A DNA stretch of 20,122 bases, taken from the IMG/VR virus record IMGVR_UViG_3300031840_000354, positions 1 through 20,122 of that record; one strand, given 5' to 3'. Positions 569 through 9,239 of this stretch are shown here, one piece after another (position 1 is the stretch's first letter; each line of letters opens with the position of its first letter). Source of the DNA: a virus. The position numbers and the translations under genes are program-made. The notes beneath the pieces were generated by a model. That model ran no database searches. It saw only the letters and a list, made by a program, of their open reading frames with translations, and was not told where the DNA came from.

Positions 569-586
569 TACCTAGAAGCCACGAGA

Positions 587-1282
587 ATGGCTTTTTATGG
601 GGGTGGTAATGGTAAGGCAAGGGAAAACAAGGAAATGCCGAAATTAGCCAATAACAAGCGTCTGGTGATGTTTACCGATGATTACCTACAGAATTGGTCA
701 CCTGATATGGTAGCAAAGAAGTCAACTTACATTCGTGATGAAAAAGTCAACTGTTTACTCTGTTGTTTCAGTAAGCGTGGCAGTCATTCTTTTGCTTACG
801 ACTATCGCAAAGGCAATGTACATAAATCTAAAGTGTTTGGTTACTACCCTGCGATGTCAATTAAACAAGCAAGAAAAAAAGCATTGGAAATACAAGTAGA
901 AGTCATAGAAAAAAACAGAGAATATGATGATGTCTTTGAAGTACATCGTCATCCATCGTACATTTATTTTTTAGAAAACAAATCAAAACAAATTAAGATT
1001 GGTAGATCTACCGATTGGATGGCACGGATCAAAGAACTTACCGTAGCTACTGAAGATGTTAGACTAATCGGTATACGATTAGAATCAAATGTGTTCAATG
1101 AAACTGCGTGCCACCAACTGTATCGTAAATATAGACAACAATCCAATGAGTGGTTTGATGATAAATCTAATGAAATAAAAAAACTCATCACTGCTGCTAT
1201 TGTTTACGGAGAAAACGATAAGATGTTAGCACAACTAATGGAAGAACAACACAAAAATATTTATGAAAGCACAGTCAGCTAA
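587..1282 (+). CDS. Integrase arm-type DNA-binding domain fused to a GIY-YIG (T5orf172-like) domain
   Basis: The 231-aa frame has two recognisable parts. Residues about 47-107 resemble the N-terminal arm-binding domain (DUF4102 type) of P4-like tyrosine integrases: I-R-D-E-K-V, then S-K-R-G-S-H-S-F-A-Y-D-Y-R, G-Y-Y-P-A-M-S-I and A-R-K-K-A-L. Residues about 124-200 resemble the T5orf172/MUG113 branch of GIY-YIG nucleases: Y-I-Y-F-L, K-I-G-R-S-x-D-W-x-A-R-I-K-E-L (Arg147), N-E-T (Glu172) and E-W-F (188-190). The tyrosine-recombinase catalytic core is absent. Start choice is open: ATG 587 has weak upstream signals, while ATG 635 (Met17) has AAGGGA at 619-624, ten bases upstream, and would give 215 aa with the arm domain intact. 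The 3' end overlaps the next gene by 20 bp. A role in DNA binding and cleavage is inferred. Confidence 0.72.
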   Translation: MAFYGGGNGKARENKEMPKLANNKRLVMFTDDYLQNWSPDMVAKKSTYIRDEKVNCLLCCFSKRGSHSFAYDYRKGNVHKSKVFGYYPAMSIKQARKKALEIQVEVIEKNREYDDVFEVHRHPSYIYFLENKSKQIKIGRSTDWMARIKELTVATEDVRLIGIRLESNVFNETACHQLYRKYRQQSNEWFDDKSNEIKKLITAAIVYGENDKMLAQLMEEQHKNIYESTVS

Positions 1283-1601
1283 AGCTAAAGGTAGAAAATT
1301 GCAGCAATGGGTACGCAATAAACTCATTGATTTACTTGATGTCCATCCAGAAGATATTGAATCAAGAAGTATGGGTGCAGGTGGTGAGGATTTGATTATG
1401 GCAAGAGCTGCTAGAGAGAAGTTTCCTTACTCTATTGAATGTAAAAATGTAGAGAAACTAAATGTTTGGGATGCTTACGAGCAAGCTAAAGCTAACTGTG
1501 GTAACTATGAGCCGCTTGTTATAATGAAGAAAAACAACAAGCAACCCTTAGTTGTCATTGATGCAGAATATTTTATTAAGAAGTGTCAGAAGATTCTTTA
1601 G
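1263..1601 (+). CDS. PD-(D/E)XK nuclease, Holliday-junction-resolvase-like
   Basis: This 112-aa protein has the order of a minimal PD-(D/E)XK nuclease. A basic helix (K-G-R-K-L-Q-Q-W-V-R) comes first, then G-A-G-G-E-D-L-I-M with Asp43 as the metal ligand, then S-I-E-C-K-N with Glu59 and Lys61 forming the E-x-K motif, and finally a V-W-D-A-Y-E-Q-A helix and a beta-rich C-terminus ending F-I-K-K-C. Archaeal-type resolvases and several phage endonucleases share this pattern. It probably cuts branched or otherwise structured phage DNA during recombination or before packaging. It starts inside the end of the arm/GIY-YIG gene (20-bp overlap). Its 3' end overlaps the leftward zinc-ribbon gene by 26 bp tail to tail. 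The fold assignment is good; the substrate is inferred. Confidence 0.72.
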   Translation: MKAQSAKAKGRKLQQWVRNKLIDLLDVHPEDIESRSMGAGGEDLIMARAAREKFPYSIECKNVEKLNVWDAYEQAKANCGNYEPLVIMKKNNKQPLVVIDAEYFIKKCQKIL

Positions 1602-1734: not shown

Positions 1735-2748
1735 TTAATACTCCAGAAGATTCTTAATCGTAACCGTCTTGGCTCGTATGGTTCTAGCTTCTTTCGCTGG
1801 TACAAACTTCTCAGGTTGTGCCTTGTAGTTACGCACCTTGCGTTCTAACTGAATCAATCCTTGTTTGGTACTAACTTGACCAATCTCATTATCACCTAGT
1901 GCTTCAATCATTTGCATTTGTAATCCTTCCATTCCTTCTTCTAGTTCTTTCTTCTCTCTTTCCATTGTTTGATACAAGTTAATGACTTTTGATAACTCAT
2001 CATCTAACTGTGCTGTTTCATTGTAATTCACACGGTTGTATTTTGCCGCCATCGTTTCAATGTCAACAGGATCATAGCGTGTGCCGTTATCTAAATGTTC
2101 ATACAGGGTATGTGCTTTACTAATAATTTCTTTTTGGATGTATTCACTGGCAGGCATTACATAACAACGGTGGTCGTTACCATTGAAAAGAATAGATACA
2201 CACAAGTAATCTGCATCCGCAATCCACGCTTGACATTCTGCTTGTAAATAACCACGCCCATACGGTTCTAGTCTTAACTCGTCTACTGAATCGTAAGGCT
2301 TACCTTGCATATTTTTATACTCCACCACCATCTTACCTACCACATTTTCCATTAAATCATTTTGTGGGGTGAAGATTTTGCCTTCAATCGGTGCAATCAA
2401 GGTAGATTCTTTAATGTAAGCAATCGCATCTAAACTAGCATAAATATCATAGGGTTTATTTTTTGAATCAATCCCTAATTCTTTACTCATTACCTCAGTT
2501 ACAGGATAAACAATGTCCATCTCTAATAATTCTTTGGTTAATTCATTGATCGTACCTTCTAATATGTTACCCATATTCATTCGTTCTTCCATTTTTTCGC
2601 TGTACACTGGGCGTTCATAAGTTCCTGCTCGTACATCCCTTAGTTGTTGTAGCAAAGTGTGTGGGGTGGCAAATAAATAAGGTATCTGTGATGCACTCAA
2701 CATATCGTCAGGTGATAACTTACCGAATCCTTTGTCTAATTTACTCAT
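1735..2748 (-). CDS. YqaJ/lambda-exonuclease-type recombination nuclease
   Basis: The 337-aa product carries the core of the lambda-exonuclease/YqaJ/Cas4 nuclease group: M-G-N-I-L-E-G (Glu64) on an early helix, S-L-D-A (Asp107), V-V-E-Y-K-N-M with the E-x-K pair Glu143/Lys145, then G-Y-L-Q-A-E-C-Q-A-W, the helix with the conserved glutamines. Such enzymes resect double-strand ends to 3' tails for single-strand annealing. Residues about 255-285 form a charged coiled-coil-like helix, followed by a basic C-terminal domain that may bind DNA. A good Shine-Dalgarno sequence (AAGGAG) lies 5 bases before the ATG. It follows the primase-helicase gene by 9 bp and precedes the zinc ribbon with no gap. 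No clear annealing protein is seen, though one of the unknown operon proteins could serve. Confidence 0.82.
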   Translation of the reverse strand: MSKLDKGFGKLSPDDMLSASQIPYLFATPHTLLQQLRDVRAGTYERPVYSEKMEERMNMGNILEGTINELTKELLEMDIVYPVTEVMSKELGIDSKNKPYDIYASLDAIAYIKESTLIAPIEGKIFTPQNDLMENVVGKMVVEYKNMQGKPYDSVDELRLEPYGRGYLQAECQAWIADADYLCVSILFNGNDHRCYVMPASEYIQKEIISKAHTLYEHLDNGTRYDPVDIETMAAKYNRVNYNETAQLDDELSKVINLYQTMEREKKELEEGMEGLQMQMIEALGDNEIGQVSTKQGLIQLERKVRNYKAQPEKFVPAKEARTIRAKTVTIKNLLEY

Positions 2749-6466: not shown

Positions 6467-6924
6467 AATAATAACCCCTCTTGTTTAATTTCTACGGTGC
6501 ATATGGTGTCGTTATGTTGACCGCCGTGAGCTACTAAAAGAATACGGCTAATCTCAAAACCATATTTCTTACCAATTCCTGTACTGTTCCATCCAAAAGA
6601 AATAACTTTACCACTAGGTCTTAATATTCTTGCGATTTCTTTACGGCACTTTGCCCAATAACTACTATTCATTGGATGCTCTAAAGATATACCATTGTTT
6701 TTGTACATTTCTTTTAATTGTCGTTGTGAATAAGGTGGATCAAATACACAATAATCTTCTGATAGATCAGGTATAGTTTGTAAATAATCTATTGCATCTT
6801 GCTCATAAGGATAAGGAAAAGGGTCTATGTAATCTTCCCCTATTTCCTCTTGTATCAATTCCCCTATCGGTTTAATCGTAAATGTTTTATGTGAAGGCAT
6901 TGCCCATTTTCTCTCTATTATCAT
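6463..6924 (-). CDS. DPPY-type DNA adenine methyltransferase, shortened
   Basis: The 153-aa product begins with T-F-T-I-K-P-I-G-E-L-I, then Y-I-D-P-F (32-36), then V-F-D-P-P-Y-S-Q-R-Q-L-K-E-M-Y (60-74), and ends with R-P-S-G-K-V-I-S-F-G-W-N and a hydrophobic strand. D-P-P-Y at 62-65 is the catalytic motif of N6-adenine methylases. From memory, related phage enzymes have about 20 more residues between the D-P-F and D-P-P-Y motifs, including an N-D-L-N-P stretch; here that segment is only P-Y-P-Y-E-Q-D-A. It may still bind SAM or may be impaired. Methylation would protect phage DNA from restriction, complementing ArdA. It is coupled by ATGA on both sides. Confidence 0.75.
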   Translation of the reverse strand: MIIERKWAMPSHKTFTIKPIGELIQEEIGEDYIDPFPYPYEQDAIDYLQTIPDLSEDYCVFDPPYSQRQLKEMYKNNGISLEHPMNSSYWAKCRKEIARILRPSGKVISFGWNSTGIGKKYGFEISRILLVAHGGQHNDTICTVEIKQEGLLL

Positions 6925-7556
6925 AGTTCCCCCATAATTTCGTGAATTTTTGGTACTCGTTTGTGTTGCTCAATAAAGGCTCTTGCCTTTGGAAAAACAA
7001 TATCAAATTTTAATTTCAAGTCTTTCCCTTGCATATACTTTTCATACTCTTGCCTACTGTAATGGACTGGTTGTCCCAATGCACTTGACACCGCTAGGTT
7101 TAACACCTGTAAATACTGCATATCCACCTTAATTTCTGGTGTCGTTACCTTACTTTCCGCTTGTGTTTGATATTGCTCTTGGTGTTCCTTATCCATATGG
7201 TTGAACGCAACAGCAGGTAGTTCTTCCCCTCGTGGTACTTCATCTAGTCCATCTAAATACAAGACTTGTCGTCTACCTGTTTTCCACTTACTGATCTGTT
7301 TTAACTGCCATTTCTTTTCTAAATCTCGGATCAGTCCTAACTGTTTAAACTTGGTGAAAGCATTTGAAACTTGCTCCCTTGTTAGTCCGCACCTGTTCCC
7401 AATACTTTCAGCAGTAGCAAAGACTAGCCCTTGTCTATTGGTGTAAGTACACATCGCAATGAACGCAACAAGCTGTGTCTTGTTGAGCTTGGTGTGTAGC
7501 TTACATACCCTTACGGGCAGGATGCTGTATAGCGGTTGCCCGTCTGGGGTACTCAA
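6921..7556 (-). CDS. Winged-helix DNA-binding protein, replication-initiator-like
   Basis: The 211-aa product opens with TTG at 7556, which overlaps the TGA of the upstream zinc-ribbon gene (TTGA); no closer ATG or GTG is available. Residues about 25-80 form a winged helix-turn-helix: L-N-K-T-Q-L-V-A-F-I-A-M, A-T-A-E-S-I-G-N-R-C-G-L-T-R-E-Q-V-S-N-A-F-T-K-F-K-Q-L-G-L-I-R. This resembles the N-terminal domain of phage replication proteins of the lambda O or DnaD-like kind. The C-terminal half (Y-L-Q-V-L-N-L and K-F-D-I-V-F-P-K-A-R-A-F-I) may bind a partner such as the helicase. If it is the initiator, the repeats at 8231-8440 are its likeliest target. That is inference from location. Confidence 0.65.
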   Translation of the reverse strand: MSTPDGQPLYSILPVRVCKLHTKLNKTQLVAFIAMCTYTNRQGLVFATAESIGNRCGLTREQVSNAFTKFKQLGLIRDLEKKWQLKQISKWKTGRRQVLYLDGLDEVPRGEELPAVAFNHMDKEHQEQYQTQAESKVTTPEIKVDMQYLQVLNLAVSSALGQPVHYSRQEYEKYMQGKDLKLKFDIVFPKARAFIEQHKRVPKIHEIMGEL

Positions 7557-8220: not shown

Positions 8221-8440
8221 TATGTTTCAGCATTGCATATTAGCACTCGCAAGGATGAAGTGCTAAAACTCAACACTTCATCAACATAGCAACATTGCAT
8301 ATCGCTAAAAAAAGAATATAAAAATCAATGCTTTAACACTTCATCAACATTGCAACATTGCATATTTGTACCTCAGCAACTCATCATCCGTATATTCACT
8401 GTTAAGTGAATACGGTGAAGTGTTGTACCTTGCTATGTTA
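8221..8440. repeat. Phased direct and inverted repeats (candidate origin or operator array)
   Basis: A 31-bp direct repeat occurs at 8272-8302 and 8335-8365 with one mismatch (8288 versus 8351). Its last ten bases, CATTGCATAT, occur a third time at 8231-8240. The three copies are 62 and 63 bp apart, six helical turns. GATGAAGTG at 8254-8262 is the inverse of CACTTCATC at 8274-8282. Inverted partial copies follow at 8415-8425 (GTGAAGTGTTG) and near 8429-8439 (TTGCTATGTT). A further imperfect hairpin lies at 8388-8412 (ATTCACT, loop, AGTGAAT). An A-rich stretch at 8306-8328 separates the long repeats. No gene is present in 8139-8582. The pattern resembles iterons of a replication origin, or sites for a regulator upstream of the promoter at 8176. 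Confidence 0.65.
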
Positions 8441-8702: not shown

Positions 8703-9239
8703 CTAAAAATGATTAAATATAAATACACCATAATTGGAAGATTCAACAACATAATAATGTTGTTCTAAATCTTTCGCGTATTTTTCATAATCAAAATAAT
8801 ATTGTAGGTGTTCTGGAATATTATAAAAACTATCACAATTGTGCAAAAAATCTTCCGCATATTGTTGAAAAGAATCATAATGACCTATACATAAATCTTC
8901 AATATCAGTTAATGAATCAATATCATTATTATATTGCAAATAAACATTGACCAATTCATAACCGTGTTCTTCTATTGCATTTTGTACTTTACATATATCT
9001 TCAATAGACGGATATTCACCTAAATTGTAAAAATTATCATAATCGTGAACCGCCCATTCATCTGCAAATGGTTGTTTTGATGTTTTTAAAACTTCATTGA
9101 TCTGTTCTTGTAGTTCTGTTTCATCACTTGATGGAATAATCCATTTTCCGTGTAAGATACCGCTATTATATGATGCTAAACAAGCAACATATATTTGTGG
9201 TTGTGTTTTTTCATTTTGTTTAATATTTGTATTTATCAT
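8703..9239 (-). CDS. ardA: Antirestriction protein ArdA
   Basis: The 178-aa, strongly acidic product matches the ArdA layout. It has P-Q-I-Y-V-A-C-L-A-S-Y-N-S-G-I-L-H-G-K-W at the start, then E-W-A-V-H-D-Y-D-N-F, G-E-Y-P-S-I-E-D-I and E-E-H-G. The C-terminal domain ends Y-F-D-Y-E-K-Y-A-K-D-L-E-Q and V-F-I-F-N-H-F. ArdA dimers imitate bent B-form DNA and occupy the DNA-binding groove of type I restriction-modification enzymes. Its length is close to the usual 160-170 aa. A good Shine-Dalgarno sequence (GAGAGGTGA) and a sigma70 promoter about 36 bp upstream indicate early, strong expression. It shares its unit only with a 36-aa membrane peptide. Confidence 0.9.
   Translation of the reverse strand: MINTNIKQNEKTQPQIYVACLASYNSGILHGKWIIPSSDETELQEQINEVLKTSKQPFADEWAVHDYDNFYNLGEYPSIEDICKVQNAIEEHGYELVNVYLQYNNDIDSLTDIEDLCIGHYDSFQQYAEDFLHNCDSFYNIPEHLQYYFDYEKYAKDLEQHYYVVESSNYGVFIFNHF

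Follow-up and report, generated by a model that had tools for sequence, protein, structure and literature searches.

The window analysed here, the 20,122-nt record IMGVR_UViG_3300031840_000354 from IMG/VR taken at its full length, is an AT-rich phage sequence (GC content of 27-42% per 1-kb block) in which the genes for the terminase, head-tail connector, major head and tail proteins lie on the plus strand and the replication genes on the minus strand. The left end of the plus strand carries, in this order, a small HNH gene, a DUF6321 gene, the gene that is the subject of this analysis, denoted here the Arm-GIY-YIG gene after the two domains of its product, and a gene for a small PDDEXK-type nuclease (Table 1). 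The last of these overlaps by 20 bp the 3' end of the Arm-GIY-YIG gene, which is faced by a RecE-like exonuclease gene. The open reading frame at 587-1282 is uninterrupted in the ORF check, and the gene within it most likely comprises positions 635-1282, judging from comparison with the relatives. This start is preferred because the relatives have an in-frame stop codon upstream and a first methionine equivalent to the window ATG at 635, and because the ATG at 587 lies within a terminator-like hairpin, which is suggestive only, given an RNA-fold z-score of -1.75 and the lack of a flag in the terminator scan; the start at 587 was accordingly dropped. Residue numbers of the 215-aa protein count from position 635, and the Pfam spans on the open reading frame from position 587.

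Table 1. Features of the window that are discussed in the text.
Feature	Position	Strand	Basis and remarks
DUF6321 gene, left neighbour, within the block exchanged between L001 and L002	299..568	+	PF19846, 86.6 bits
Terminator-like hairpin after the DUF6321 gene, contains ATG 587	574..596	+	RNA fold
Arm-GIY-YIG nuclease gene, 215 aa	635..1282	+	Start from relatives, Pfam, structure, purifying selection; open frame from 587
Integrase-type arm DNA-binding domain, residues 12-94	668..916	+	VIA-align to 3JTZ, PF13356, PDB sequence profile
T5orf172 GIY-YIG nuclease domain, residues 109-185	959..1189	+	PF10544 and PF13455 over cut-off; invariant motif residues
Small PDDEXK-type nuclease gene (phrog_244)	1263..1601	+	phrog_244, E 2e-22; PF24608 below cut-off
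RecE-like exonuclease gene, right border of the variable slot	1735..2748	-	phrog_434; slot comparison
Iteron-like region, candidate replication origin	8225..8430		AT-rich, noncoding, near the GC-skew minimum; two 31-nt direct repeats (8272, 8335; 97% identical) and partial copies; not far from a replication-initiation-like gene (6921-7556)
ArdA-type antirestriction gene	8703..9239	-	PF07275, 121.7 bits

The N-terminal half of the protein is an integrase arm domain of the PF13356 type, that is, an AP2-like sheet plus a helix, both by profile and by fold. Pfam detects Arm-DNA-bind_3 (PF13356) at residues 49-106 of the open reading frame (E 2.1e-7, 31.4-31.6 bits against a cut-off of 27), with boundaries nearly the same as those (about 47-107) that the original prediction had read from the sequence. 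An AlphaFold model built on a 17-member alignment (mean pLDDT 86, pTM 0.53, so low that the relative placement of the two domains is not readable from it) was compared with known structures using VIA-align, and the arm half superimposes on the arm of the HPI integrase (3JTZ) with a Z-score of 11.0 over 77 of 77 residues and an rmsd of 1.6 A, followed by 3JU0 (Z 10.6) and 3RMP (Z 10.2), the best match outside the integrases being an AP2 domain (Z 5.6). Foldseek was in agreement, and a second model, that of the L118 member, which is 46% identical to the window protein, gave the same result (Z 11.4). When a profile of the arm part of the family was searched against all PDB sequences with E-values up to 10 admitted, the only matches were 3ju0 and 3jtz/3rmp, the best E-value of 0.027 being weak taken alone; the full-length family profile had no match in the PDB. 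The arm motif is partly invariant among members down to about 40% identity.

The C-terminal half belongs to the T5orf172/GIY-YIG nucleases by profile and motif residues, and cleavage activity is predicted on these grounds. T5orf172 (PF10544) is matched at residues 125-201 of the open reading frame (E 3.9e-7, 31.0-31.2 bits against a cut-off of 20) and MUG113 (PF13455) also exceeds its cut-off (28.6-28.8 bits against 22.3), in agreement with the prediction of a T5orf172/MUG113-type domain at about 124-200. At an E-value of 0.01, the arm and MUG113 models each detect all of the 17 family members scanned and the T5orf172 model detects 16, with some distant members scoring under the curated Pfam cut-offs. 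The residues Y111, K121-I122-G123, R131, E156 and H160 do not vary among the 23 aligned members. The structural matches of this half are weak (Slx1 and UPF0213, Z about 4), with the order of strands and helices in the model being right. Furthermore, E156-x3-H160 has the pattern around E180 of Odn, the origin-directed nuclease (gp88) of Vibrio phage ICP1, where this glutamate sits in TEQRIH; the equivalence of E156 and E180 rests on the motif because the automatic alignment left that part unaligned. The E180A mutation of Odn is predicted to abolish catalysis (PMC8263062).

The fusion of the two domains, in the order arm then GIY-YIG, recurs in 38 IMG/VR contigs besides the window record, 39 in all, as found by pattern-based scans, a recurrence that the original prediction had named as a check. 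Each of the 38 loci retrieved with the arm as the sole query encodes the nuclease domain as well, fused to the arm in one open frame; a few family members end at contig edges, and the sole broken copy among the 39 (L170, 2959-3611) has a frameshift 3' of the catalytic motif that reflects either decay or an assembly error. None of this arm subfamily was found joined to a recombinase in the IMG/VR scans. The tyrosine recombinase core (PF00589), which had been noted as missing from the gene, is absent from the window contig and from 25 other carrier contigs, also as an adjacent frameshifted remnant, in a search that was positive for 14 of 14 control genomes; the contigs are fragments, such that an integrase could reside elsewhere in the respective genomes. 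In each of 24 carrier contigs tested, exactly one match to PF13356 was obtained, namely the Arm-GIY-YIG gene itself. With no recombinase core in any of the 26 carrier contigs, the gene does not represent a broken integrase, and there is no visible resident integrase with which it would compete.

Beyond the uncultured phages, short-pattern scans confirmed no relative in 84,980 prokaryotic species genomes, and among 50,697 phage records and plasmids gave weak partial matches only, nearly all to the GIY-YIG part; since these scans rest on short patterns, absence from isolated phages, plasmids and cellular genomes is not proven. The protein has no match in NCBIfam and none in PADLOC, and among the matches listed for the viral predicted structures of BFVD, the best query TM-score is 0.44 and none is a full-length two-domain match. 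One apparent two-domain match, Gordonia phage Sixama 174 (26%), lies on the strand opposite the annotated gene and was dropped, the annotated protein having no match to any Pfam family.

The family occupies two unrelated genomic sites, and at both of these there are sister phages that lack the gene. In the lineage of the window, the site is a slot between the DUF6321 gene, or a small ORF following it, and the exonuclease gene. The slot holds the Arm-GIY-YIG gene together with the PDDEXK-type gene in the window, L001 and L008; both of these plus a further minus-strand gene in L002; the Arm-GIY-YIG gene alone in L003, L004 and L010; the Arm-GIY-YIG gene and a C5-methyltransferase gene in L009; the methyltransferase gene alone in L029; and neither nuclease nor methyltransferase in L028. 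The PDDEXK-type gene is thus missing in L003, L004, L009 and L010. In the other lineage (L013-L016, L114-L119 and others), the Arm-GIY-YIG gene is located upstream of the gene for the terminase small subunit, and in L120, L121, L123, L125 and L126 it is found neither before the terminase nor in the rest of the contigs. The pattern-based scans yield no true frequency of such empty sites.

The methyltransferase shows a pattern of its own: the copies of L009 (5237-6214, minus strand) and L029 (1555-2583, plus strand) occupy the same slot and are 91.4% identical, whereas the exonucleases of these two contigs are only 72% identical, and relatives of this methyltransferase occur near the Arm-GIY-YIG nuclease in the other lineage (L013, L018, L021, L112, L113). 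In L114-L119 and L127, an intergenic region of about 190 nt precedes the terminase small subunit gene and is 83-98% identical whatever the nuclease allele; it carries the short repeats TATGGAAAACA and CTAGGAAT and could be a packaging or promoter site. The possibility that TAGGAA-type repeats upstream of the terminase gene serve as arm-like targets was rejected, given that they are also present in the gene-less L120 and that the intergenic region is independent of the allele.

Comparison of close relatives indicates that the Arm-GIY-YIG gene is exchanged between phages as a discrete unit, a conclusion that rests on two cases. First, L001 and L002, the backbones of which are about 63% alike (62-64% identity for the upstream genes, the exonuclease and the primase), have in common a block of about 1.29 kb, which is 93.7% identical, encompasses the DUF6321, nuclease and PDDEXK-type genes and extends from the DUF6321 start to the exonuclease stop. 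Second, in L115 and L116, the preceding gene is 97.8% and the following intergenic region 93% identical, whereas the Arm-GIY-YIG gene itself is only 62.5% identical, and in the tree the L116 allele groups with those of L117-L119. The DUF6321 gene, which moves with the nuclease between L001 and L002, encodes a domain that in several PHROG families is located at the end of much larger proteins of unassigned function. Purifying selection clearly maintains both halves of the protein: median dN/dS values across seven close members are 0.155 (arm) and 0.078 (nuclease half), similar to those of the exonuclease (0.115) and the primase (0.095), all of these values being approximate because dS is near 1.

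So what could be the function of such a gene? On balance, and with modest confidence, we take it to be probable that the gene encodes a free-standing, sequence-specific, homing-type T5orf172 endonuclease in which an integrase arm serves as the targeting module. Under this scenario, the arm domain would dock on a short DNA target, the T5orf172 GIY-YIG domain, tied to it by a short linker, would cut the DNA near the docking site in a co-infecting phage with another allele or with no copy of the gene, and repair from the carrier would copy the gene, sometimes along with its neighbours, into the cut phage. DNA binding, cleavage, the target and the exchange driven by the gene's own cut are all inferred here. 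This possibility is favoured because the family fits the description of phage T5orf172 homing nucleases in anatomy, location and mobility. In particular, both domains and their fold are recognizable, the motif residues are invariant and both halves are constrained; the gene is present sporadically at two unrelated sites; the shared L001/L002 block and the L115/L116 allele swap testify to its mobility; and the location near terminase and replication genes, at exchange boundaries, is that known for T5orf172 homing nucleases (PMC10448857). The suggestion of a homing enzyme in the original prediction thus gains gene-precise mobility and empty sites in sister phages, with the cleavage itself still a prediction. 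Several facts do not sit easily with this scenario. Homing genes often decay, whereas among the 39 copies here only one is frameshifted, and it is this rarity of broken copies, along with the strong constraint, that chiefly argues against a purely selfish gene. Furthermore, the flanks of the two lineages have no target motif in common beyond what is found in shuffles, and ordinary homologous recombination between conserved neighbours could also result in exchange of the unit.

The second explanation in our ranking, which we consider unlikely, is protection of the phage: through the captured arm, the protein would recognise att arm sites in a rival element that integrates, be it a satellite, a genomic island or a prophage, and its GIY-YIG domain would destroy these sites. 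The precedent is Odn, a T5orf172 nuclease with a DNA-binding domain in common with the replication initiator of a satellite (PMC8263062). The nearest solved arms are those of HPI, HAI7 and P4-like integrases, the kind used by islands and satellites; the strong conservation of both domains and the lack of a visible integrase in the carriers suit a lytic attacker; and the precise allele replacement between L115 and L116 would fit an arms race. However, in contrast to the clear similarity between Odn and RepA, pattern scans of IMG/VR and the 84,980 prokaryotic species genomes yielded no closely related arm in any integrase, and this is the main point against interference with integrating rivals, with the qualification that these scans are insensitive to diverged integrases. 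Hence the recognition of att arm sites that had been proposed from the sequence has so far found no support. Nor does the partial invariance of the arm motif suggest the tracking of a changing target. There is a small chance that phages have arrived at the Odn principle a second time, independently, by capturing an integrase arm, so that the attachment-arm sites of satellites or islands that block the phage would be read and destroyed by an arm-T5orf172 fusion.

Less likely again is a resident phage nuclease that serves the phage's own cycle, whether in DNA processing near replication and packaging or in degradation of the host DNA, and that has been shuffled as cargo. The gene does adjoin recombination or terminase genes, it is under purifying selection like core genes, and it is accompanied by PDDEXK, C5-methyltransferase and ArdA genes. 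However, close relatives in the same lineages do without it, and therefore it is not required; also, the two unrelated positions are hard to reconcile with such a role, and the presence of an arm points to a specific target. A regulator that binds DNA without cutting it, for example on integrase arm sites or phage promoters, ranks fourth and appears improbable. Arm domains in integrases are indeed regulatory DNA-binding modules (PMC8138268), but all GIY-YIG motif residues are invariant here and the stronger constraint is on the nuclease half; the carrier contigs, furthermore, have no tyrosine recombinase, which weakens the particular version put forward originally, a regulator competing with an integrase. 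Finally, a decayed integrase or a chance or assembly fusion, in favour of which nothing speaks beyond the homology to integrase arms, can be practically dismissed in view of the 39 contigs, the several gene contexts, the lack of a core in the 26 contigs tested and the selection on both halves.

How, then, does the homing-type endonuclease that we favour compare with known systems? One close counterpart is Odn, which likewise has a C-terminal T5orf172 domain behind one DNA-binding domain of a mobile-element type, is of similar length (226 aa compared with 215 aa) and shares the YxYxxx...IK[IV]GRS...R and E-x3-H motifs. The DNA-binding part of Odn is of the RepA type (DUF6945 in Pfam) and not an integrase arm, and it is the satellite's own RepA-type domain that Odn uses to find and cut the satellite origin, a target that is proven (PMC8263062), whereas any target of the present family is putative. 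The arm is shared, in fold and sequence, with the HPI, HAI7 and P4-like tyrosine integrases (3JTZ, 3JU0, 3RMP), the core-binding and catalytic domains of which are absent from the Arm-GIY-YIG gene and from its contigs. The AP2-HNH homing endonucleases, a pairing described previously (PMC10448857), resemble the family in joining a nuclease to a DNA-binding domain of AP2-like fold (the arm matches 6SY0 at Z 5.6 and 5.2), but their nuclease is of the HNH type, the order of the domains is reversed and the DNA-binding domain is a genuine member of the AP2 family. We found no description of a GIY-YIG domain paired with an integrase arm in the literature searched, supplements, preprints and Pfam architectures aside, consistent with the initial impression that the pairing was not characterised, and an uncommented database entry may exist; the survey of the GIY-YIG superfamily does not contain the word 'integrase' (PMC1564403), and the only modules mentioned in the main text of the T5orf172 survey are zinc fingers and RepA_N (PMC10448857).

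It is with the T5orf172 homing endonucleases of ICP1, T5-like, Vibrio and Aeromonas phages that the family has most in common under the interpretation preferred here, given the same nuclease domain in a free-standing, sporadically distributed gene near terminase or replication genes and at exchange boundaries (PMC10448857). Phage T5orf172 nucleases have exchangeable DNA-binding modules, mostly zinc fingers, and mark the boundaries of exchange; of the 229 surveyed, 200 carry CapR, DUF723 or DUF4397 zinc fingers, and the rest include RepA_N (PMC10448857). The Arm-GIY-YIG family differs from these in its arm and in the scarcity of broken copies. The integrase arm, previously known as a regulatory part of recombinases, thus appears to have been taken over by a mobile phage nuclease as its likely targeting module, in a pairing that is stable across at least two lineages of uncultured phages. 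The family allows a direct test of whether phages use reading heads derived from integrases against integrating rivals, and it extends the set of T5orf172 DNA-binding modules from zinc fingers and RepA_N to the integrase arm.
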